Assembly: GCA_024103275.1 (NCBI GenBank)
Contig: JAGFIV010000041.1
Location: 1 to 64,000 of the forward strand
DNA from: Flavobacteriales bacterium
GTDB taxonomy: Bacteria; Bacteroidota; Bacteroidia; Flavobacteriales_F; PHOS-HE28
Length of the DNA stretch: 64,000 nucleotides
Direction of reading: 5' to 3'
The position numbers and the translations under genes were made by a program. The notes below the pieces were generated by a model. The model was not told the DNA's origin, searched no databases, and worked only from the letters and a program-made list of their open reading frames with translations. Shown here in pieces: positions 26,741 to 40,323 of this stretch (position 1 is the first letter of the stretch; each line of letters opens with the position of its first letter).

Positions 26741-26781
26741 TAGTGCGCTCTGGGGAGGTGATGGGGGTGGTAATGGAAGTA

Positions 26782-26943
26782 GGGAAGTAAGGGAAGCAAG
26801 GGAAGTAAGGGAAGCAAGGGAAGCAAGGGAAGCAAGGGAAGTAAGGGAAGCAAGGGAAGTAAGGGAAGTAAGGGAAGCAAGGGAAGCAAGGGAAGTAAGG
26901 GGTGTAAGGGAAGCAAGGGAGGTAAGGGATGTAAGGGAAGTAA
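26782..26943. repeat. 9-bp minisatellite, 18 units
   Basis: Eighteen tandem units of 9 bp, consensus GGGAAGYAA with Y alternating between T and C; units 14, 16 and 17 are degenerate (GGGGTGTAA, GGGAGGTAA, GGGATGTAA). It is purine-only on the plus strand apart from the Y position. Since the unit is a multiple of three, a plus-strand frame stays open through it, joining to the four-helix-bundle gene downstream and reading as repeated REV/REA. It lies 41 nt after the serine hydrolase stop. Confidence 0.95.
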
Positions 26944-26999
26944 GGGACGAGATGGGTGGGAAGCATTCCCGGTACAAAATCACAGGCAACAGCATACGG

Positions 27000-27485: not shown

Positions 27486-27514
27486 CACCCACCACTACAC
27501 TTTCCTTGCCCGCC

Positions 27515-27595
27515 TTACCCACCTCACCCACTTTACCCACCTTACCCACTTTACCCACCTTACCCACTTTACCCACCTTACCCACTTTACCCACC
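27515..27595. repeat. 9-bp minisatellite, 9 units
   Basis: Nine tandem 9-bp units, TTACCCACY, where Y alternates C and T so that the true period is 18 bp; the second unit begins TC. It lies between the four-helix-bundle gene and the exonuclease gene, ending 9 nt before the latter's ATG. A plus-strand frame is open through it (PTLPTLPTL) in phase with the exonuclease, so an upstream start would add a Pro/Thr/Leu tail. Confidence 0.95.
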
Positions 27596-28356: not shown

Positions 28357-29667
28357 ATGCCTGCTGCTTCTCCCATGGAAGTACCTATGACCTGGAATCC
28401 GGGCCGCCATTTCGTTGAATGGATGCTCTTCCTGTTGGTGTTCGTGATATCGTTCCACGACGCCTGGGTCATCGGCGGCGGCAATACCTACGACTTTTTC
28501 TGGTGCTCCTGGGACGGGCTGGGCTACTACCAATGGCTGCCGGCCGCCTGCATCGATCGGAACCTCGACTGGATGATATGGACCTATCCGGTGGCGGAGG
28601 GCAGGGCCATCAGCTTGTTCACCTTGGGGGTGGCCTGCTTGCAACTTCCGTTTTTCCTGGCAGCCCATGGTCTTGCCCTGTTTTTCGGCTATCCGGCCAT
28701 GGGGTTCGACCCCCCTTACGCGGTTGCCATGATGGCTGCAACAGCAACCTATGCGGGCATGGGCGTGGTGCTTGCCTACCGACTGGCGGCGCGTTTTGCC
28801 GACCGGACCAGTGCACTATTGGCCGTGCTGGCCATTTATGGGGGCAGCAATTTGTTCTTCTATGCGGTGCACCAACCATTGATGTCGCACGTGTACTCCT
28901 TTTTCCTGGTCACCTTGTTCTGTTGGACGGCCCTGCGGGTGATCGATGGACCGAAAGGGGCGGATGTCGTGTTGTTCCTGGTGTCCGGGGCGCTGCTGGT
29001 GCTGGTCCGGCAGGTCAATGTCTTCGTGTTTGCCTTCCCGTTCTGGATGGCGTGGACCTCTCCGGGAGGGCTTTGTGGTGCCTGTGGGAACCTGGTCCGC
29101 AGGCGTGGCCCATTGATCCTGGGCATCCTGCTCGCCTCACTGCCCTGGATACTCCAGTCCATGTATTGGCACCATATCACCGGCCATTGGTACGCCAATG
29201 GCTACGCTTACAAGCAAGAGTTCTTCGAGTTTGGCAAGATGGTACCTGGCATGGTGCTGTTCAGCCCGCGGAACGGCTGGTTCGTGTACAGCCCGATCTT
29301 CCTGCCGATGATGGCCATCCTGTTGGTGCATGCATGGCGGAACACGGCAACGGCCAGGCCGGTCTTGTTGATTTTCCTGCTGACGGTGCTGCTGTACAGC
29401 GCGTGGTGGTGCTGGTGGCTTGGGGGAGCGTATGGCTACCGGGGGTTGGTGGACCTGTATGGCTTGTTTGCGATTCCCATGGCTTGGCTCTTCCGTTCCG
29501 TGGTCCGCCGCACTTGGGCCGTCCGTGTGGTTGCCGCGCTCTGTCTGTGGGCGCTTGTCAGCCTGAACTTCGGGATGATGCGGCACTACGAATTCTATTT
29601 GTACAGTGAGTACGGCCATTGGCCGGAGATCTTGGCGATCGTTGGTAAGATCGCAGCGGGCAATTGA
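28357..29667 (+). CDS. GT-C-like multi-span membrane protein
   Basis: About 436 residues with roughly ten hydrophobic helices. The layout is that of GT-C glycosyltransferases, which use polyprenyl-phosphate sugars outside the inner membrane: a first helix, then a loop with acidic residues (FFWCSWDGLGYYQWLPAACI, then DRNLDW), and a later extracytoplasmic loop with YKQEFFEFGKMVPG and SPRNGWFVYSPIF. The family is not certain and the acceptor is unknown. Possible starts are ATG 28357, 28375 and 28387. The next GT-C gene follows after 10 nt, suggesting co-transcription. Confidence 0.75.
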   Translation: MPAASPMEVPMTWNPGRHFVEWMLFLLVFVISFHDAWVIGGGNTYDFFWCSWDGLGYYQWLPAACIDRNLDWMIWTYPVAEGRAISLFTLGVACLQLPFFLAAHGLALFFGYPAMGFDPPYAVAMMAATATYAGMGVVLAYRLAARFADRTSALLAVLAIYGGSNLFFYAVHQPLMSHVYSFFLVTLFCWTALRVIDGPKGADVVLFLVSGALLVLVRQVNVFVFAFPFWMAWTSPGGLCGACGNLVRRRGPLILGILLASLPWILQSMYWHHITGHWYANGYAYKQEFFEFGKMVPGMVLFSPRNGWFVYSPIFLPMMAILLVHAWRNTATARPVLLIFLLTVLLYSAWWCWWLGGAYGYRGLVDLYGLFAIPMAWLFRSVVRRTWAVRVVAALCLWALVSLNFGMMRHYEFYLYSEYGHWPEILAIVGKIAAGN

Positions 29668-29677
29668 TCTGGATTGA

Positions 29678-31720
29678 ATGGGGCTGAACAGGATGACCGA
29701 ACGCATTTCGTGGTGGCGGTCCGGGTTGGGCCTGTTGGTGGCGATCCTGCTCTTCGCCGCTGGTATTTGGTCGGTACCGTTGGCCATCTTCGGTCCCGAC
29801 CGTGCCCTGATCCCTGGCGACCTGGGCGATGCGCGGTTCAACAATTACATCCTGGAGCACGGCTACCGGTGGATGACCGGCCAGGAGAGGTCCTTCTGGG
29901 ATGCGCCCTTCATGTTTCCGTGGCAGAACACGGTGGTCTTGTCGGACAGCCACTTGGGCACCATGCCCTTCTATTCGACCTTGCGCGGCATGGGCTTTTC
30001 CCGCGAAGGGGCGTTCCAGGGTTGGCTCCTGCTGATGTTCGCGCTCAACTATTGGATGTGCCTGCTGGCCATGCGTAAATGGGCGGGCCATTGGGCATTG
30101 GCGGCTTGTGCGGCGTTCATCTTCGCCTTCGGCATCTTCAACATCGGGCAGATCAACAACCTGCAGATGATGCCGCGGTTCATGGCCCCGCTGGCCTTCC
30201 TGTTCCTCTGGAGGCACCTCTCCACCGGTGCGTTGAAATACGTGTTGCTCACCACGCTTGCCGTGGTCTACCAATTCTACTGCGGTGTTTACCTGGGCCT
30301 TATGTTGGTGTATGGCTTGTTCTTCCTGGCCGTGGCGCATGCTGTGGCCTTTCGCGGGCCGTCCTTCCTCCACCGGTTCAGGCAATGGCGGTACAGCGTT
30401 GCATGGCTGGTCGCCCTGGCGGGCGGCCTGTTGCTTTTGGCCCCAATGATGCTGCATTACCTGGAGCTGCCCAAGGATGTGGGGGATCGCACGTTCGCCT
30501 CCATCCTGCCTTCCCTTCCGCGGCCTTCATCCTATTTCTTCACGCATCCGGCGGCCATGTCGTGGCGGTCCCTTTCGTATCACGGGGTGGATGCCATCCC
30601 GGAATGGTGGCGCCACTTTCACTTCATAGGCATCCTGCCTTGGCTGGCCGTGCTGGCTGCGCCGTTCGTGTTGTTGTCCAAACGGGTCGCGGCCCGGCAC
30701 CGGCGCATGGTCGCGGCCGCTGGGGCCGGATTGGTCCTCAGCATCCTGTTCACCTTGCATGCCGGGGATTTCACGCTGTACCGCCTCTTCTTCGCCCTTC
30801 CTGGCTTTTCAGCGGTCCGGGCGGTGGACGGGTTCATCAATGTGGAAGTGCTTTTCTTCCTGGTCCTGTTCGTATTGGTGCTGCGCCCCTTGTTCCGTGG
30901 GAAATGGACGGCCGTGGTCCTCAGCCTGGTGTTGCCGGTGGCCGTGGTCCAGGACAATCGCTGGGATGTGGGATGGCTGAAAAGCTTCGACAAGCATGAC
31001 TCCAGTGCGCGGGTGCAGGACGTGGGGCGGCGGATCCTGCGGGAGTATGGTGGACCGGAAAGGTGGGATGCCATCGCCTATGAACCACCGATCGGATGGA
31101 AGACCAGCGGGGAAGAGTCCCACTTCCGCTTGATCACCCTCCACATCGATGCCATGCTCGCCGCCCAGGAACTGGGCATCCCGGTGGTGAATGCTTACAC
31201 CAGCGGCTACCCGGGCAACTACCTGTCATTCTTCGACCACATGGACCACAGGGCGCTTGCCGAATGGTGCGCATACAATGGCGTGGCCACGGACCGCATC
31301 CAGGAGATCCATGGCCTGGCCGTTCCCGTGGCTAGGATGGACACGGTGGCCATCCGGGCTTCCAATGGGAAATACCTGTGCGTGGAACCGGACGAAGACA
31401 CGGTCAAGGCCGACCGGAACAAGCCATTGGAATGGGAGACCTTCATCCGGTTACGGATGGAGGACGGCAGGGTGGCTTTCCTGGCCCATACCGACCGGTT
31501 CCTGTTCGCCGACCTGGAAGGCGAGGGATACCTGCGGGCAAACGGGTTGGACCTGGGTGATTTCGGATTGTTCATGCCCGGACCCCGGCCGGACGGGGCG
31601 ATGGTCCTGAGAACTTTTGATGGACGCTATTTGGCGCTGGACCCGGCCACTACACGGCTTCAGGCCGTCGCAGACACGGCGGGGCGATCGGCGGCATTCA
31701 CGGTAGGACCGGCATACTGA
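29678..31720 (+). CDS. GT-C-like membrane protein fused to fascin-like beta-trefoil
   Basis: A 680-residue protein. Residues 1 to about 430 are a multi-helix membrane region of GT-C type, with an early acidic loop (LIPGDLGDARFNNYILEHGY). A soluble region without membrane helices follows. Residues 557-680 (31346 to the stop) form three repeats of about 40 residues of the pattern hydrophobic strand, G-[KR]-Y-L, L-x-A, F: VAIRASNGKYLCVEP, then VAFLAHTDRFLFAD, then MVLRTFDGRYLALD. This is the signature of a fascin-like beta-trefoil, a carbohydrate- or protein-binding fold. I know of no GT-C protein with that tail; the fusion is continuous in frame and not at a contig edge. Confidence 0.75.
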   Translation: MGLNRMTERISWWRSGLGLLVAILLFAAGIWSVPLAIFGPDRALIPGDLGDARFNNYILEHGYRWMTGQERSFWDAPFMFPWQNTVVLSDSHLGTMPFYSTLRGMGFSREGAFQGWLLLMFALNYWMCLLAMRKWAGHWALAACAAFIFAFGIFNIGQINNLQMMPRFMAPLAFLFLWRHLSTGALKYVLLTTLAVVYQFYCGVYLGLMLVYGLFFLAVAHAVAFRGPSFLHRFRQWRYSVAWLVALAGGLLLLAPMMLHYLELPKDVGDRTFASILPSLPRPSSYFFTHPAAMSWRSLSYHGVDAIPEWWRHFHFIGILPWLAVLAAPFVLLSKRVAARHRRMVAAAGAGLVLSILFTLHAGDFTLYRLFFALPGFSAVRAVDGFINVEVLFFLVLFVLVLRPLFRGKWTAVVLSLVLPVAVVQDNRWDVGWLKSFDKHDSSARVQDVGRRILREYGGPERWDAIAYEPPIGWKTSGEESHFRLITLHIDAMLAAQELGIPVVNAYTSGYPGNYLSFFDHMDHRALAEWCAYNGVATDRIQEIHGLAVPVARMDTVAIRASNGKYLCVEPDEDTVKADRNKPLEWETFIRLRMEDGRVAFLAHTDRFLFADLEGEGYLRANGLDLGDFGLFMPGPRPDGAMVLRTFDGRYLALDPATTRLQAVADTAGRSAAFTVGPAY

Positions 31721-31733
31721 CCGGTTGACGGCA

Positions 31734-33227
31734 TCAGTTCCCGTCCTCGTCCAGATGTAGCCGCTCCAGGACGATCTCGCCCAAGTAATAGCTGGCCGTA
31801 CCATCGGAACCGGTCACATAGGCACCCGGCTGGCAATCCCCGCGCACCATGGAATATCGGGTGGCACTGGCCATCCAATGATGATACCGGAAGTTGCCGT
31901 GCAATTCGAAAGTCCCATCCTCCTTGGCGATGGTGTACCACGGTACCGACCAATCCTCGTTCCAGCCGTAAACGGCTCCTCCCGGTACCGGCTTCCGGTC
32001 CCGGTCAACAAGGCGTCCATAGATCTTCGCCGTGTGGAACGAGGAGTAATTGTAGTAGTTCGGCAAGGCTTCACAATGGCCTTTACGGGCCGTCAGGTCA
32101 AATTCCTGGAAGGCCTTCGCCACCGGTTTCACGGTTCCTTCCAATGGCGGCAGCGCCGGATCCACTTCCGTCCAACCCTTCCGGTCCATCACTCCCATGT
32201 AGCTGGGATGGAACCGCTGCCAGGCCACATCCTTGAACTGCCACCAGGAATAGCCGATCCCCCCGCAGGCTAGCGTTTGTGCCACGGTTTTCCGGGCAAA
32301 AGCCAATTGGGTGCTGTAAGGCACGGAGTCATTGTCCGCGGGAATGGCCGTTTCACCGATCATCCACGGTTTCTTCACGTATTCCCCGTACCAATGGATT
32401 TCGTTGCGCACCTGTTCGGGTTCATACTCGTAGGGGTGGAATGAGATGAAGTCCACGTCCAGGATGTTGGGGTCCCACGAAAAAACTTCGGGCAAACCTG
32501 CCAGACCGATGGTGGTTAGCTGATCGGGCGCATGCTTTCGCATCAGGCCTCGCCAGTGCTTGACGATGCGGTGGACCTCATCCTTGGGACGATGATGGGG
32601 CCTGTCGAAGTAAAGCGGTTCATTGAACAGGTCGTAGGCCATGATCACCGGCCGATCCCTGAACCGGTCGGCCAGGAGCAGGCATTGCTCCACGAACCTG
32701 GGCTGGTCCACCCGCAGCCGCACCAACAAGATCACCTTCAGCCCCGTGCGTTCCGCCACTTGCAACAACTCGTCCATGGCTTGGAGGTACCGGTCTTCAT
32801 GTTCCCTTGACAAGGCGAACAAGGAATCCACGCCACTGCCATACCGGGCTTGGAGATATACGGGTTCATCGGGGCCCAGCTCAACGAGGTCCGATGCGAT
32901 GCCCACGATCCGGACGGTATTGAATCCCAATTGCCTGATCAAGCGGAATTCGGCTTCTATCAGCTTCAGGGTGGAGTCACGTGTGCTGAACCGGAAAAGA
33001 TCCGCCCTCTCATAGTTGCGGCATGGTGCGGCCCAACAGGCGGTGTCGTTCCACTGCAGGTCGGCGATGTAGTTGAGTGCTATCGGAAAGAATGGTTTGC
33101 CGTCCAGTTCCATGTGGCCATCGGCCATCCGGATGAAGGATGAAGGGCCCGGCTGGCCACAACCCGGGAGGTACAACCAGGCACAAAGCGCGGTGGACAA
33201 CAAGATCCAGTACTTGCCGGCCGCCAT
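31734..33227 (-). CDS. Lipoprotein glycoside hydrolase (GH5-like)
   Basis: A 497-residue protein with a lipoprotein signal (lipobox LPGC, Cys 23), hence tethered outside the inner membrane. A TIM-barrel follows: LRQLGFNTVRIVG-like strand region, AYDLFNEPLYFDRP with the proton donor Glu 203 in NEP, SFHPYEYEP, and KPWMIGETAIPADND with the likely nucleophile Glu 292. It is most like GH5 or GH2-type clan A enzymes such as mannanases; the substrate is not predictable. Residues 400-497 form a carboxypeptidase-regulatory-like beta domain (KIYGRLVDRDRKPVPGGAVY). It overlaps the upstream glycosyltransferase stop by one base. Confidence 0.82.
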   Translation of the reverse strand: MAAGKYWILLSTALCAWLYLPGCGQPGPSSFIRMADGHMELDGKPFFPIALNYIADLQWNDTACWAAPCRNYERADLFRFSTRDSTLKLIEAEFRLIRQLGFNTVRIVGIASDLVELGPDEPVYLQARYGSGVDSLFALSREHEDRYLQAMDELLQVAERTGLKVILLVRLRVDQPRFVEQCLLLADRFRDRPVIMAYDLFNEPLYFDRPHHRPKDEVHRIVKHWRGLMRKHAPDQLTTIGLAGLPEVFSWDPNILDVDFISFHPYEYEPEQVRNEIHWYGEYVKKPWMIGETAIPADNDSVPYSTQLAFARKTVAQTLACGGIGYSWWQFKDVAWQRFHPSYMGVMDRKGWTEVDPALPPLEGTVKPVAKAFQEFDLTARKGHCEALPNYYNYSSFHTAKIYGRLVDRDRKPVPGGAVYGWNEDWSVPWYTIAKEDGTFELHGNFRYHHWMASATRYSMVRGDCQPGAYVTGSDGTASYYLGEIVLERLHLDEDGN

Positions 33228-33943
33228 TACGCCATGCCGTACTTAAGGATGCACCAGATCGCCCGGAAGCCGTCCCGCCAGCCGATCTTCTTGCCTTCCG
33301 AATAAGTGCGCCCGTAATAGCTGATGCCCACCTCATAGATGCGGACGCCCTTTACCCGGGCCAGTTTGGCCGTCACCTCCGGTTCGAAGCCGAAGCGCTG
33401 CTCCTTCAGCTCAAGGCCCTGCGCGATGTCCGTGCGGATCAATTTGTAGCAGGTCTCCATGTCGGTCAGGTTCAAATTGTTGAACGCATTGGAGAGCTGC
33501 GTGAGGAACTTGTTGCCGATGCTGTGCCAGAAGAAGAGGATGCGGTGTGGATGGTGGCCCATGAAGCGCGAGCCGAAGACCACGTCGGCGAAGCCTTCCA
33601 CCACGGGACGGAGCAGGTCGTTGAATTCGCGCGGGTCGTATTCCAGGTCGGCATCCTGCACGATCAGGTATTCGCCCGTGGCCTCCTTGATCCCGCGGTG
33701 GATGGCCGCACCCTTGCCCATGTTGCGCGGCTGCTGCACGAAGCAGATGCCCATGCCGGGATTTGCCGCCATGTAGTTTTCCACAGCCTGTACCGTGCCA
33801 TCGGTGCTGCCGTCGTTCACAATGATCACCTCCTTGGCGATGCCGTTCACCAGCTCCACCTGCCGCACCTTGTCCAAGATCAAATGGATGGTACGCTCCT
33901 CGTTGTAAGCGGGGATAATGATGGAGAGGCGGCGTATCGCCAT
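33227..33943 (-). CDS. DPM1-like polyprenyl-phosphate glycosyltransferase
   Basis: A 238-residue GT2 enzyme: LSIIIPAYNEERTIHLILDK, VIIVNDGSTDGT, NMGKGAAIHRGIKEATGEYL, VQDADLEYDP (DxD), GSRFMGHHPHRILFFWHSIG and NNLNLTDMETCYKLIRTDI. This set is typical of enzymes that load mannose or glucose onto dolichyl/undecaprenyl phosphate. No C-terminal membrane helices are present, as in the short soluble class. Set among five GT-C proteins, it is the obvious supplier of their lipid-linked sugar donor. It is the first gene of a two-gene operon with the lipoprotein hydrolase. Confidence 0.9.
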   Translation of the reverse strand: MAIRRLSIIIPAYNEERTIHLILDKVRQVELVNGIAKEVIIVNDGSTDGTVQAVENYMAANPGMGICFVQQPRNMGKGAAIHRGIKEATGEYLIVQDADLEYDPREFNDLLRPVVEGFADVVFGSRFMGHHPHRILFFWHSIGNKFLTQLSNAFNNLNLTDMETCYKLIRTDIAQGLELKEQRFGFEPEVTAKLARVKGVRIYEVGISYYGRTYSEGKKIGWRDGFRAIWCILKYGMA

Positions 33944-34034: not shown

Positions 34035-35495
34035 TCATTCCTCCCTTCGCTGGAAGAGATGGATGGAATACGGGCCACCGCCAAGCGTGGTGGTGGGCGT
34101 GTCGGGCCTGATGTCGGCCACGCTGTGGAATCGGGGGTTGTCCGCCAGTGCGTCCAATCCCATGCGTCCTTCGTTTGCCGCGAAATGCGCGTCCCAGACG
34201 ATCCAGTCGCCGGGCCGCATCAAAGGCCCGTCCAAGGCGGCCTGATCCAAAGGATGCACAGCCTCGTCGGGGTTCCATGGATCGGTCCTCGTCAGGAGGA
34301 AGATCAACGGGTCCCAGGCCACCAATCGTTCACCCGTCCTCCACTGTTGCAGGATGGTCTCCGCCGCACGGCGTTGCACGGGTTCCACGTCCCCCACAGG
34401 TACGGGAAGCGGTTCGCGCCTCACCAATTCATGATAGCCGGTATTGGCCGTAAAAAGGCAGAAAACACCGAGCAGTAGGCTGCTCCATTGCTTCACCGGG
34501 ATCCATAGGCGCCACAGGGCGGCAAAGGCGTGGATGGCGAACAACACCAGCAAGGGCACGGTGGTGGCGACTACGCGCAGCAGGCCCATGGAGCCCATCC
34601 CCCCGCGGTACCACGCAAAACTGTGCAACGCGAAGATCGCCACGGCGGGAACCAAGGTGAGCAGGGCCATTCGCAAATGCTCCTCCCGCCGCTCCTTGTC
34701 GCGCCAGATCAACACGGCCATGGCCGCCGTGGCGGCCATCAGGATCCGCACCATCACCACGCCGAAACGGCTGTCCAGGTTGTCCACGAACAGCCAGGGA
34801 TCCCCCCTGCCGTATAGCGTCTTCCCCAGGTACGTCCGGTCCGTGGCCAGCGCCCATGGCTCGCCCAGCAACAAGCCGCTGGCCATGGAGTACAGCACAG
34901 GCCCGGCCAACAGCCAGGGCAAGGCGCTGAAATCGCGGCGCAGTATCACCACGAGCATGACGCACGGCGCAAAGGCTGCGTATTCGGGGCGGACGAAAGG
35001 GAGCAACGAGGTTGCCGCCATGGCCGCGGCATGCCGATGGCGGAGCAGCAGGAGGATGATCCAGGTGCAGCACAGACCGAAGAGCACTTCCGTCATTCCG
35101 GCCACCAGCACGTGCACGTAAACCGGGACCATGAACAGGAAAATCGGGACCGGCCAGGCCCAAGCACGCTGCCCGGGCTTGTTGATGATGGCCATGATGA
35201 CGGCACACGTGGCGGTGGCACAGATCGCGTTGAACAGGGTGGTGCCCCAAGGGCCCATCAGGGCGAAGGGGGAGGCCAATAAGGAGAACAGGGGCTTGCC
35301 CCATAACGAGAGCGCCACTTCGGCATGCTGCCAGAAATAGCGGGCATGCAGGTAGTGCGCCGCTCCGTCGCCGGGTTCGGGGATCCCGGGGGACATCATG
35401 CGCGCCACCAGGAGCAGGGCTGCCAAACCTGCGGCCAACACCAAAGGCCCATAAAAGGACCTTGCGTTTGGGCGCTGTGTTATCGGGCCATCCAT
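34035..35495 (-). CDS. GT-C-like membrane glycosyltransferase
   Basis: About 486 residues with about ten membrane helices. After the first helix come PGDGAAHYLHARYFWQHAEV and LSLWGKPLFSLLASPFALMG, a pattern of the mannosyltransferase-like GT-C proteins (acidic loop, then W-G-K-P). The long C-terminal 100 residues (VGDVEPVQRRAAETILQQWR onward) are soluble and probably extracytoplasmic. MDGPITQRPNARSFYGP at ATG 35495 is chosen because it opens right before the first helix; the frame is open further upstream but that part is Arg-rich and unlikely. The acceptor is unknown. Confidence 0.78.
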   Translation of the reverse strand: MDGPITQRPNARSFYGPLVLAAGLAALLLVARMMSPGIPEPGDGAAHYLHARYFWQHAEVALSLWGKPLFSLLASPFALMGPWGTTLFNAICATATCAVIMAIINKPGQRAWAWPVPIFLFMVPVYVHVLVAGMTEVLFGLCCTWIILLLLRHRHAAAMAATSLLPFVRPEYAAFAPCVMLVVILRRDFSALPWLLAGPVLYSMASGLLLGEPWALATDRTYLGKTLYGRGDPWLFVDNLDSRFGVVMVRILMAATAAMAVLIWRDKERREEHLRMALLTLVPAVAIFALHSFAWYRGGMGSMGLLRVVATTVPLLVLFAIHAFAALWRLWIPVKQWSSLLLGVFCLFTANTGYHELVRREPLPVPVGDVEPVQRRAAETILQQWRTGERLVAWDPLIFLLTRTDPWNPDEAVHPLDQAALDGPLMRPGDWIVWDAHFAANEGRMGLDALADNPRFHSVADIRPDTPTTTLGGGPYSIHLFQRREE

Positions 35496-35744
35496 GTCCG
35501 GGATGGTCAATGTGGTCCTTGCGGCCGCGCAACATCTGCGTTGCCGGCAGTGCCCAAGGCGTTTGTGGAAAGCCTCCTCCCGTGGATGCCGGTCACGCGT
35601 TCCGCTTGCCGGGCTTGGAACGGGACCGGGTTGGCGGAGCATACCGGGGAATGGATGGAAGGGTTGGAGGGGAATGTGCCCATGCCGCCAAAGCCGTGAT
35701 CTTCTGCAATGTGTGGACAGGTGCCGAACACGAGCCTGTCCGGA

Positions 35745-37319
35745 TCAAATGGGTGGCTGCTTGAATCCATTTCCTTCCGTGCGGAAATAAAGTACGCCAT
35801 CCGGCATGGCTGCCTCCAATTCCCCCGGTGGGTCCACGATGATGACCTTGCGGCCCAGCCGGATGAGCTTTTCCGCCCTATCGGGTTCGGGCAGCAAGGT
35901 CAGGACTTGGTGGCCATGCAGGTACATCATGTCCATGGTGGCCGGGAAGGGAACGTTGTACACGACCACCCCGGTACCGTGGTCGGGGCCGACGAACGCC
36001 TCCAATCGATCGATCACCTCCAGGTTGTGGAGATTGTCGCCGCGCAACCACCAGATGAACCCGTCCCGCCGGGCCTGTTCCGTATGCCATTTTTGGATGC
36101 GCTCCAGATCCAGCAATGCTGCTGAGGTGGCTATGGTGAGCACGATCATGGCCCCCGCGCGGGTCCGCGCGGAGGGGAGGAGCTTCGCCAGTGCCTGGAT
36201 CACGACGGCCATTCCCACGAAGAAGAATGGAATGATCAACATCGGGAATGCACTCATCTTGGTGGCGGCCACGGTGTAAAATCCGTAGGTAAGCACCACG
36301 CTGACCAGGGCCATCAACCGGACATCCCGGCGGATGCTGGCCGCGATGCCCAGGAGCAGTGCGCCAAACATCATCCAGCCCGGGAATCCATGGAATTGTT
36401 CCTGGATGGATCGGAAGTAGAAATCCCAACCTCCGCCATGGTCCTCGACGGCGGTCCATAGATGGAGGGAATTGAGCTCCATCTCATAGGCCATCACGTC
36501 GGGGAAGCGGACCCATGCGCTGATCTGCCATGGGATCAACACCGCGATCCCCGTCAAGAAAGCTATCGTCATCCACCGGAATTCTTCCTTGCGCTCTGCC
36601 TTGCTGGTCGCGGCCATTACCGCCCATCCGCCCATCAGCAGAAAGCCCGGAAGCCATTTGGTAAGTGCGGCGCAGCCCATGAACAGCCCGATCACCACGG
36701 CCTTCCACCAGGTCATGGAACCGCGCCAGTGCATCCACCCCCAAAAGGAACCGCCCACCAGTGTAATGAAGATGGCATCATTGTGGTCCAGCATGGCCGA
36801 CCCCAGCACCAGCATCAGGATCCAGTAGGACCAGGCCATGAGCACTGCGGCGATGAAGGCGACCCGGCGGCCGTGCATGGCCCGGCCGATCCCGTACGTG
36901 AAAAACACCAGCGCGGTCGTGAACAGGGCACTCGCCATGCGCGCAGCCCAAACCGAGTTGCCGAACGCTTTAATGCCGAGTGCCATCATCCACAGGAAGA
37001 AGGGTTGCTTATGCAGCCAGATGTGGGTGCGGTCCCAAGGCACGATGTCCAACCCCAGGGCCGGGTCGGTGTACAGCATCGGCGTGAACGGGTGTTCAAT
37101 CATGTTCTTGGCCACCACGGCATGGATGCTTTCATCCCAATTGTTCAAAAAGGGGTCCAGCTGGGCCACCATGGCCCGCATGCAAAAGGCGGACAGGAGC
37201 ACCAGGCCCAGGGCCCAATGATCACGGTTCTTCAAATGGGCAAGACAAGCCAACAACGTGGCTGCGGCCGAACCGGCGATCACGCCCTGTTCAACCGGAC
37301 TGAAGTAGGAACCAAGCAT
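35745..37319 (-). CDS. ArnT/PMT-type (GT39/83-like) glycosyltransferase
   Basis: A 524-residue membrane protein. The first periplasmic loop has LNNWDESIHAVVAKNMIEHP with the catalytic-type Asp-Glu, then WDRTHIWLHKQPFFLWMMAL and AARMASALFTTALVFFTYGI, a layout shared with ArnT (lipid A aminoarabinose transferase) and protein O-mannosyltransferases. The C-terminal portion (about residues 390-524) is soluble. Such enzymes move a sugar from an undecaprenyl-phosphate donor to lipid A, a glycan or protein. It starts 32 nt from the stop of the scoB fragment. Confidence 0.82.
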   Translation of the reverse strand: MLGSYFSPVEQGVIAGSAAATLLACLAHLKNRDHWALGLVLLSAFCMRAMVAQLDPFLNNWDESIHAVVAKNMIEHPFTPMLYTDPALGLDIVPWDRTHIWLHKQPFFLWMMALGIKAFGNSVWAARMASALFTTALVFFTYGIGRAMHGRRVAFIAAVLMAWSYWILMLVLGSAMLDHNDAIFITLVGGSFWGWMHWRGSMTWWKAVVIGLFMGCAALTKWLPGFLLMGGWAVMAATSKAERKEEFRWMTIAFLTGIAVLIPWQISAWVRFPDVMAYEMELNSLHLWTAVEDHGGGWDFYFRSIQEQFHGFPGWMMFGALLLGIAASIRRDVRLMALVSVVLTYGFYTVAATKMSAFPMLIIPFFFVGMAVVIQALAKLLPSARTRAGAMIVLTIATSAALLDLERIQKWHTEQARRDGFIWWLRGDNLHNLEVIDRLEAFVGPDHGTGVVVYNVPFPATMDMMYLHGHQVLTLLPEPDRAEKLIRLGRKVIIVDPPGELEAAMPDGVLYFRTEGNGFKQPPI

Positions 37320-37351: not shown

Positions 37352-37663
37352 CTAAAGCACCATCTCCTTCACGCCTTCGGCCACCACCAGCTTCCCTTCG
37401 GTCTTCGCCCGCACGTCGTCCACGCTCACCCCGGGGGCCAGTTCCTTCAACACGAACGCACCGTCGGTGATATCGAAGAAGCCGAGGTCGGTGAGCACAC
37501 GTTTCACGCAGCCCACGCCGGTGAGCGGCAGGCTGCAGGGTTTGAGCAGCTTGCTCTCGCCGTGCTTGTTGGTATGCATCATGCACACGATGATGTTCTG
37601 GGCGCTGGCCACCAGGTCCATGGCGCCGCCCATGCCCTTCACCATCTTGCCGGGGATCTTCCA
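37352..37663 (-). pseudogene. 3' fragment of scoB (direct repeat C, left copy)
   Basis: The last 103 codons plus stop of a CoA-transferase subunit B gene. They align without gaps to 39667-39978 in the intact scoB. By hand, 195 of 200 bases match at 37464-37663, while the 112 bases nearest the stop have diverged (GKLVVAEGVKEMVL versus [14 protein letters not shown]). The active-site region SENGILGMG is missing, so it cannot be functional. Homology stops sharply at 37663, where a 2.0-kb AT-richer insert with one membrane-protein gene begins. A short open frame runs 21 bases beyond the junction. Confidence 0.88.
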
Positions 37664-37824: not shown

Positions 37825-39636
37825 TCATGGACAAGTAATCTCGATTTCCCGGATATGGGTGTTTGAAAGGTGGTAACGCGTTCTTCGCTGATTCCATAGG
37901 TAGAAGCCGCATTTGCCGCCAGGAGGAACGGGTTGGACATAGCGGGCAACCTCTATTCGGGTTCCGGAAGCCAACCGGACCCAATACCTCAATTCAACGG
38001 CATCGTATCGGATGTAAGCCCCGGTACTATCGAGGACCTCCGTTACCAGCATAATGTGGGAAACGGGATCCTCGGTTTGGACCTGCGCATCAAAAATGAG
38101 GCAGACACCTGATGCACCCCTTGGGCAAGAAATGGGCAAGTGAATCCATTCTGCATTGCTTACAGTCGAGGGAACGGTAATTTCCGGACCCGCAGTCCAC
38201 ACGCAAGGTGTGTCGCGTACCAAGAGGTAGGCCCCACTTGAAGAACTATCTGAAATTTGGTATCCATCCAAGTATTCATTCAGAATTTCCCGGTTAACGA
38301 TGCGAACATCGTCCGGGTCGTTCTTGTTCAGGTCAGTGCGCATTACAATAGGTGGATAGCCTTCGGCGATCTGGTGGAAAGCCCAGGCCGGTGCGAAGTG
38401 TTCGGACCCGGAAAGCAATAACGGACGGCCAAGCTGGCGTCGCAACACTTCCACCTCATCCATGAATCGCAGAGGGAAGGTCTTTTCATACGAATCCACC
38501 ATTCGGCTGAAATTCAAGGTTTGAAGTGTTCGAGCTGGGAATACAAGCAGCAGAATTGCCATATATCGCCAAGCCGATGAGTACTTGCCCAGCACTTCCA
38601 GTGTATGTGCCACGATAAGGATATACAAGGGGATAAAATGCAATGCAGCCCGATCCTGCGGGTAATTAGTTCCAATGAATCCGGCCATTGCCCAACGTGA
38701 AAGCACATCCATGGCAAGTACGGCAATTAGTAAAACGAATGTTGATCGCCAAATGCGGGTTCGGGAAAGCTGCCAAATGGCAACTCCCGTGCAAATAAAA
38801 ATCGGAGCCACTAGTATTCGTATAAAGGAATTGCTTCCATGGTTGAAAATGGCATTGGCCAGGGATTGCACCGTTACATGCATGAACCCCTGTGTTCCTC
38901 CGAGATAAAGCAGACCTTTACTGCGCAAGTCAAACGCAATAATGGCGGAAATGGCCAGCACTGCAACTAAAGGAGTCAAGTATAATGCCAAGTTAACGCA
39001 GTTCCTTGTCTGCTTCAAGGGGGGGCTGATGCAGGAAAGCAGCACGGACAACAGGAGCAACACGGCAGCAGTAGGCAAGAGTGATAAGTCCGCCAGAACG
39101 GACAGTGAAGCGGCCGTGACCATCAATATTAGCTCCCGGGTGCGGCCTTGGCGGGAATAGGCGGCAAGACCGTATAATGCCCAGATCCAGCCGGCCATAG
39201 CGGGTCCATATCCACGGAACAAGGCAAAAAAATCCAACAGGAACGGGCAGAGCGCCAACGCAAGAAAAGTACACCATCGCAGAATTGAGGTGAAATTCCT
39301 AGAAAAGGCCCAGCATCCCCACGCATAGATGGGAAAGGAAAGCACACTTCCCCAGCGGATGCCCAATGGGAAATAGCCCCAAAAGCGATAGCCAAGGGCT
39401 CCGAATAACGAGTTCAGGAAGTGATTCCCGGCATCCGTATGGGACAAAAAGGGAAGAAACTCACCCGTGTATGCATAGAACCAAAATGAGTTACCCTCGT
39501 CTTGGATGAAAGGAACCAGAATGGCACGCGCTATTACGTACGCCCACACCGCCAAGATTGTGGCAACAAGAAGGAGGGCCTCACACCGGGCCAATCCCTT
39601 ACCGGCCTCTCCATCGGCTTTGGCTTTAGTGCCCAT
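37825..39636 (-). CDS. GT-C-like membrane protein, likely acquired
   Basis: About 603 residues: some ten to twelve membrane helices in the first 400 residues, then a soluble C-terminal domain of about 190 residues with beta-strand character (LRFMDEVEVLRRQLGRPLLL; CLIFDAQVQTEDPVSHIMLV). The first loop, VPFIQDEGNSFWFYAYTGEF, holds the acidic pair expected of GT-C enzymes. The gene is clearly AT-richer than its neighbours and lies wholly inside the scoB target duplication, so transfer is likely. ATG 39636 is preferred to TTG 39648. It ends 161 bp short of the scoB fragment. Confidence 0.75.
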   Translation of the reverse strand: MGTKAKADGEAGKGLARCEALLLVATILAVWAYVIARAILVPFIQDEGNSFWFYAYTGEFLPFLSHTDAGNHFLNSLFGALGYRFWGYFPLGIRWGSVLSFPIYAWGCWAFSRNFTSILRWCTFLALALCPFLLDFFALFRGYGPAMAGWIWALYGLAAYSRQGRTRELILMVTAASLSVLADLSLLPTAAVLLLLSVLLSCISPPLKQTRNCVNLALYLTPLVAVLAISAIIAFDLRSKGLLYLGGTQGFMHVTVQSLANAIFNHGSNSFIRILVAPIFICTGVAIWQLSRTRIWRSTFVLLIAVLAMDVLSRWAMAGFIGTNYPQDRAALHFIPLYILIVAHTLEVLGKYSSAWRYMAILLLVFPARTLQTLNFSRMVDSYEKTFPLRFMDEVEVLRRQLGRPLLLSGSEHFAPAWAFHQIAEGYPPIVMRTDLNKNDPDDVRIVNREILNEYLDGYQISDSSSSGAYLLVRDTPCVWTAGPEITVPSTVSNAEWIHLPISCPRGASGVCLIFDAQVQTEDPVSHIMLVTEVLDSTGAYIRYDAVELRYWVRLASGTRIEVARYVQPVPPGGKCGFYLWNQRRTRYHLSNTHIREIEITCP

Positions 39637-39666
39637 AGGGGCAAGCAAAATGGGAGAGCATCTGTG

Positions 39667-40323
<657 letters not shown>

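Follow-up and report, generated by a model that had tools for sequence, protein, structure and literature searches.

The window, a stretch of 64,000 nucleotides from a Flavobacteriales bacterium, encodes a membrane protein of 680 residues in which a core of predicted GT-C superfold is joined to a C-terminal β-trefoil of the bacterial fascin-like kind, related to the CBM92 carbohydrate-binding modules (Table 1). Other genes also have this fusion, which recurs on several GT-C-type families. With moderate confidence, and by analogy to better known enzymes, we propose that the protein acts as a GT-C transferase on the periplasmic side and uses its tail to hold the glycan that serves as acceptor or arises as product.

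In such a mechanism the neighbouring GT2 enzyme would probably load the polyprenyl-phosphate carrier that supplies the sugar, and the inner-membrane protein would transfer this sugar, in the periplasm, to a glycan or glycoprotein of the envelope. The trefoil would lie next to the active site on the same side of the membrane. There its Trp-Glu pocket could bind the acceptor, or the product as it grows, which would concentrate acceptor locally and bias the choice of the chain that is modified. This role is modelled on proposals made for the MIR domains in Pmt2 and for the carbohydrate-binding modules in EmbC, AftD and GT136.

Table 1. The window gene with its parts and neighbours, and tailed proteins of other loci (window positions unless a locus is named)
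Feature	Position	Strand	Basis or remark
GT-C membrane protein with C-terminal β-trefoil, 680 aa	29678..31720	+	open frame, conservation, AlphaFold2 model
Predicted GT-C transmembrane core, residues 1-427, ~11 membrane helices, N-terminus inside	29678..30958	+	core model, loop charges
PGDLGDAR motif, residues 46-53, first outside loop	29813..29836	+	candidate catalytic acids D48/D51
Small predicted extracytoplasmic domain, residues 428-548	30959..31321	+	also in tail-less homologues ending near query 532-546
CBM92-type (bacterial fascin-like) β-trefoil, residues 551-680	31328..31717	+	12 strands, CBM92-B fold and profile match
Trp586-Glu587, sole remaining WExF site, subdomain α	31433..31438	+	β and γ without Trp-Glu pair
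Upstream membrane protein, without tail here	28357..29667	+	relatives with trefoil elsewhere (cluster 0)
GH5-like protein, lipobox-like start	31734..33227	-	PF00150 E 1.3e-6; homologues 40-66% identical in related loci
GT2, dolichol/undecaprenyl-phosphate sugar synthase-like	33227..33943	-	PF00535 E 6.1e-33; 66-89% identical across loci
Polytopic membrane protein, possible GT-C	34035..35642	-	homologue of 36% identity close to the same genes in L035
PMT_2/ArnT-type GT-C, without tail here	35745..37319	-	PF13231 E 3.7e-10; relatives with trefoil (cluster 2)
Membrane protein (cluster 7), different C-terminal tail	37825..39648	-	relatives carry trefoil instead
AlgX/AlgJ-like proteins with trefoil tail	L101 3480-5021; L102 4076-5602, 7054-8610; L099 12456-14108		PF16822 tested for the L101 protein
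N-terminal trefoil behind lipobox-like signal, then PMT_2-type core (cluster 2)	L109 8065-10167; L117 8420-10495		
Small single-trefoil proteins, lipobox-like starts	L044 7492-7965; L133 6058-6588; L132 7417-7917; L138 5030-5560		

Conservation of the fusion

The 680 codons are free of internal stops, and a sequence search counted one copy of the gene in its own genome. Among 197 related genomes, homologues reaching the end of the query were found in ten genomes of the genus, the window included. The proteins of the nine other members align across all 680 residues, tail included, are 39-58% identical to the window protein and end alike, which bears out the continuous frame of the original prediction. 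Most homologues from other families of the class stop at query residue 532-546. A scan of species genomes with the window protein as single sequence found zero relatives; the same scan with the ten-genome alignment reached 39 loci and added tailed homologues in further Bacteroidota, including records named Flavobacteriales and Chitinophaga, together with many tail-less ones. A chance frame fusion or an assembly error is ruled out by the presence of the fusion in the ten genus genomes and in other lineages.

The history of the fusion was followed in a tree of 42 core sequences, of which 17 have the tail and 25 lack it. The tailed cores all lie within a single well supported group of 20, whose other three sequences are tail-less, and the distribution of tails requires at least four changes, by gain or loss. 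The simplest reading of the tree would be an old fusion with later losses; several gains are also possible. As homologues without the tail exist, it appears dispensable for the reaction of the core.

The membrane core

Sequence families give little guidance on the core. No Pfam family lies above threshold for the core or its 25 relatives, the PMT family match that would give a GT39 signature is missing from the same set, neither Pfam nor NCBIfam gives a glycosyltransferase family for the core, and its profile has no match among solved structures. Because family searches gave no assignment, the core was modelled on its own (pLDDT 91.0, pTM 0.92), and Foldseek places OST STT3, PglB, ArnT and AftA as the best matches of this model. 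VIA-align 2, a re-ranking of Foldseek's matches and not an independent search, gives Z 18.0 over 358 residues for Pmt4, Z 17.1 over 424 residues for STT3, Z 15.6 for AftD and Z 15.5 over 420 residues for ArnT; PMT and AftA are also among the top rows, and Alg proteins and PimE follow lower down. All of the 45 best-scoring rows are GT-C proteins. On this comparison of the model, made with the core alone, the core has the GT-C superfold, as had been predicted for the membrane region. An AlphaFold2 run on the whole protein with an alignment of 31 sequences (mean pLDDT 90.4, pTM 0.90) yields a GT-C core at residues 1-545 followed by the trefoil at 551-680.

The first outer loop holds conserved acids, a trait of GT-C enzymes. 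Within the PGDLGDAR motif G47, D48 and R53 are invariant and D51 is nearly so in sets of 31 and 26 homologues, and by analogy to these enzymes we infer a catalytic role for D48 and D51. With helix and loop boundaries drawn by hand from the model, the 11-helix reading gives 22 Lys and Arg per 100 residues in the inside loops; the outside loops, which are shorter, have 8 per 100. An N-terminus inside and 11 helices would place the C-terminus, and with it the trefoil, outside the cytoplasmic membrane, in agreement with the location first proposed for the tail.

The missing glycosyltransferase family would also suit a different GT-C-fold protein, one that handles lipids (for instance in lipid or glycolipid delivery) and uses the tail to bind a glycolipid head group. 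NCBIfam returns a weak, sub-threshold match of the core to the trehalose lipid delivery protein MmpA (E 1.2e-4, 20.9 against a cut-off of 210 bits), which points the same way. We regard such a lipid handler as highly improbable, given that the fold neighbours of the core are sugar transferases, that the acidic motif of the first outer loop is conserved and that neighbouring genes belong to the PMT_2 and GT2 families.

The trefoil tail

The AlphaFold2 model shows twelve strands at residues 551-678 with threefold symmetry. The three repeats reach a mutual score of 26.5, a value attained by none of 2000 shuffles (mean -22.8, sd 11.2). Three trefoil repeats had been read from the sequence, and structure prediction with a fold search, the check proposed at that time, confirms them. 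The module had been placed at 31346-31720; it does run to the end of the protein, and its start lies slightly further upstream, at about residue 551 (31328), with the end at 31717 plus the stop codon.

Foldseek ranks human fascin and CBM92 first for the whole model (probability 1.00), with OST/STT3, PglB and ArnT below them. In VIA-align 2 the tail superimposes on human fascin with Z 22.5 (1.3 Å, 122 residues) and on CBM92-B with Z 20.6 (1.6 Å, 124 of 125 residues). Kinship in sequence is seen between a profile of the tails and CBM92-B (E 1.5e-21) and, by phmmer with the window protein as single sequence, to the CBM92 structure 7zoi (E 3.6e-4); the Pfam Fascin family (PF06268) matches the tail at E 1.3e-4, slightly under its cut-off. 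The term fascin-like of the original prediction thus holds for the fold, but in bacteria it denotes the CBM92 class, and the link to the eukaryotic protein is one of fold and distant kinship only. Fascin, an actin bundler, shares the trefoil, but it consists of four in tandem and is cytosolic, whereas the window protein has one, predicted outside the cytoplasm on a GT-C core.

Bacterial fascin-like domains have been renamed CBM92 and are described as carbohydrate-binding modules on secreted hydrolases (PMC11039641). A WExF motif in each subdomain, forming a Trp-Glu pocket, is typical of them, and glucose was found bound in crystals; in some members Trp is missing from one or more sites, with WExF partly or wholly absent (PMC11039641). 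The window tail shares with CpCBM92A/B (7zoi, 7zoh; PMC11039641) the β-trefoil of about 125 residues, the sequence kinship and the WExF motif, but differs in its setting on an inner-membrane GT-C protein and in having one Trp-Glu site instead of three. Only subdomain α carries the motif, as WETF, so we use the name CBM92-type and do not assign formal membership. The most fitting name for the tail is CBM92-type bacterial fascin-like domain, and by analogy it is a putative glycan binder; binding to glucose or β-glucan is a trait of the CBM92 class.

The possibility that the trefoil is an ordinary GT-C C-terminal domain is ruled out twice over. Homologues stop at about residue 545 without a trefoil, and the same module is found attached to other proteins or by itself.

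Trp-Glu sites and their loss

The window tail reads WETF at site α (W586), FGLF at β and AAF at γ. Among the ten genus members the α Trp is kept in eight and the Trp-Glu pair in seven. In tails from other genomes site α or β is Trp-Glu in most cases, and at least one such site is present in 45 of 51 membrane-borne tails. The γ pair behaves differently: it is kept in 4 of the 51 membrane-borne tails versus 14 of 15 tails on soluble proteins (Fisher 5.5e-10), a contrast weaker than its p value because tails share ancestry and the proteins are not independent, and one from which families 4 and 8 depart. Sites α and β are likewise present and γ absent in Pmt2-MIR, where site α influences processivity (PMC7759382). 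The recurrent loss of γ, with this parallel, hints at a common geometry of trefoils on GT-C cores.

These losses also bear on whether the tail still works in the genus. It could be a fading remnant, inherited as an ancestral two-site tail and now losing function: a single canonical site is left, the α Trp is absent altogether in two of the ten members, the tail is the faster-changing part (28-47% identity, against 44-64% in the core), and the family tree demands its repeated gain or loss. Yet none of the ten genomes has a truncated tail, and the Trp-Glu pair persists in the majority. Moreover, third codon positions in the tail differ about twice as often as second positions between near relatives, from which we conclude that it is a protein domain still under selection. 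Such a decay is in our judgement improbable, and a tail kept to hold a glycan remains the preferred reading.

The same module on other proteins

A profile built from 15 tails was run against 395 genomes of the class and matched in 38. It matched in 8 of 395 genomes of a phylum-wide sample, whose loci are left out of the fetched and classified set described here. Forty stretches were fetched around matches, with helices counted by hydropathy, and hold 33 polytopic proteins with a C-terminal trefoil and two with an N-terminal one, next to 4 AlgX/AlgJ-like, 9 small and 10 other soluble carriers. The profile search for further GT-C proteins with the tail, as first suggested, has thereby uncovered several polytopic families.

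The tailed polytopic cores form eight BLAST clusters. PF13231 scores above its cut-off in clusters 2, 3 and 9 and slightly below it for a cluster 7 relative (L060 11978-13831); a relative in cluster 0 matches a putative glycosyltransferase model of NCBIfam below its cut-off, cluster 1 is linked to GT-C by fold comparison, and clusters 4 and 8 by helices alone. On evidence that differs by cluster, there is some support for GT-C in at least five tailed families, and the number could be as high as eight. Several of these GT-C-type families have no curated family at all.

In two cluster 2 proteins (L109, L117) the trefoil is N-terminal. In their cores the first outer loop appears to follow two helices, a start that resembles the window protein at 35745-37319 and would place both ends outside. 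Among the four small lipobox-like proteins three have all three Trp-Glu sites and the L044 protein has two. The AlgX-like tailed protein of L101 is covered by PF16822 (AlgX). In this locus the tails of three unrelated proteins are up to 66-67% identical to one another; across the similarity table copies from the same genome are not generally nearest, and are so in L101 and a few others.

Similar modules on several unrelated enzymes of one locus would also fit a protein-protein scaffold, in which the trefoils pack together or with a trefoil lipoprotein into an assembly complex and sugar binding is incidental. Fascin itself works through protein contacts, and membrane-borne copies have lost part of their canonical sugar sites, above all γ. 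Against this stand the Trp-Glu pairs kept at α or β in most copies elsewhere, and the window genome offers the module no like partner, as the tail profile detects only one copy there. We therefore think a scaffold unlikely.

That related genomes attach this module to further GT-C-type proteins, to AlgX-like acetyltransferases and to lipoproteins suggests that all of them address the same glycan. As a tentative extension, the trefoil may be a pathway-wide address tag with which a Bacteroidota locus directs its unrelated inner-membrane GT-Cs, its AlgX-like O-acetyltransferases and its small lipoproteins to one periplasmic glycan. If so, CBM92 modules would serve envelope glycan synthesis besides degradation; fold and motif on inner-membrane GT-Cs and O-acetyltransferases point to such a second use, in making or decorating the glycan. 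The common module would then help to tell which genes work on one and the same polymer, and the acceptor of orphan enzymes could be found from what the isolated module binds.

Relation to known systems

In PMTs the MIR domain is placed between membrane segments. These GT39 enzymes (Pmt1-Pmt2, Pmt4; PMC7759382) share with the window protein a GT-C core and an extracytoplasmic β-trefoil, the MIR domain, but the window trefoil is C-terminal, of another sequence family and with other site residues, and PMTs belong to the eukaryotic ER. EmbC, AftD and the GT136 enzyme ORF12 of Citrobacter youngae are GT-C enzymes in which extracytoplasmic carbohydrate-binding modules occur (PMC11127046). Like the proposed window protein, they are bacterial GT-Cs with a module that binds the polymer acceptor, and a polyprenyl-phosphate sugar synthase also takes part in the pathway. 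The GT136 module, which binds unmodified polymer and was dispensable for catalysis as tested, has an immunoglobulin-like fold, however (PMC11127046). The window core has no sequence match to any searched family. The holding of a glycan by the tail, as originally envisaged, stays the best guess by analogy with the MIR domains and these modules.

AlgX has a module of its own; in the AlgX-like PF16822 proteins of related genomes the appended module is the CBM92-type trefoil, and the window has no such protein. AlgX is the SGNH acetyltransferase of alginate (PMC4148444, PMC9734138).

The original prediction knew of no described GT-C glycosyltransferase with a fascin-like tail. For a CBM92-type module this stands within our literature search, to which subscription journals were largely closed: such a module on a glycosyltransferase is not described there, the combination of fascin-like, glycosyltransferase and Bacteroidetes leads to GH5 work, fascin domain with periplasmic glycosyltransferase gave nothing, and two papers name both CBM92 and glycosyltransferase, once each. 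It does not extend to trefoils or binding modules in general, as GT-Cs with a β-trefoil or other modules are known (PMC7759382, PMC11127046). So far as searched, what is not found described is a CBM92-type module on GT-Cs that is common to unrelated enzymes of one locus. Domain databases may already list the combination of GT-C and trefoil.

Gene neighbourhood

Locus L044 unites, side by side, a trefoil lipoprotein, the GT2, two membrane proteins with the tail (clusters 0 and 1), a cluster 4 protein that also has it and a GH5 homologue, and variants of this set are found in L060, L099, L101, L102 and L103. In L099, L101 and L102 the AlgX-like tailed proteins adjoin a candidate MBOAT membrane protein, judged from its start sequence. 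Genes of these kinds also flank the 680-residue gene in the window, the only one of them there that bears a trefoil. The GT2 protein resembles a Dol-P-Man synthase (5mlz, E 5.5e-16) and sll0501, a glycosyltransferase (E 1.2e-12), and from this kinship it is probably the donor maker for the GT-C protein. The GH5-like neighbour has no match among solved structures at 1e-5, and the protein at 34035..35642 has no notable family match in Pfam or NCBIfam. Of the 27 fetched loci in which a membrane protein bears the tail, GT2 (at least 60% identity) is present in eight and GH5 in seven; the linkage is frequent, not general. The frequent absence of both counts against a glycan-holding tail, as do the loss of two of three Trp-Glu sites, the fast change of the tail and the tail-less homologues.

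Several further features of the window were recorded. The membrane protein at 37825-39648 ends in a beta-rich-looking tail of ~140 residues where its L060 and L118 relatives have the trefoil, possibly another binding module. GC falls to ~53% over this gene, which looks acquired. It is flanked by a direct repeat of 300 nt (37353-37652 and 39668-39967, 89% identical), a truncated second copy of a gene for CoA-transferase subunit B. Two arrays of 9-bp tandem repeats lie at 26770-26947 and 27504-27595, with 19.9 and 10.2 copies of related units on opposite strands.
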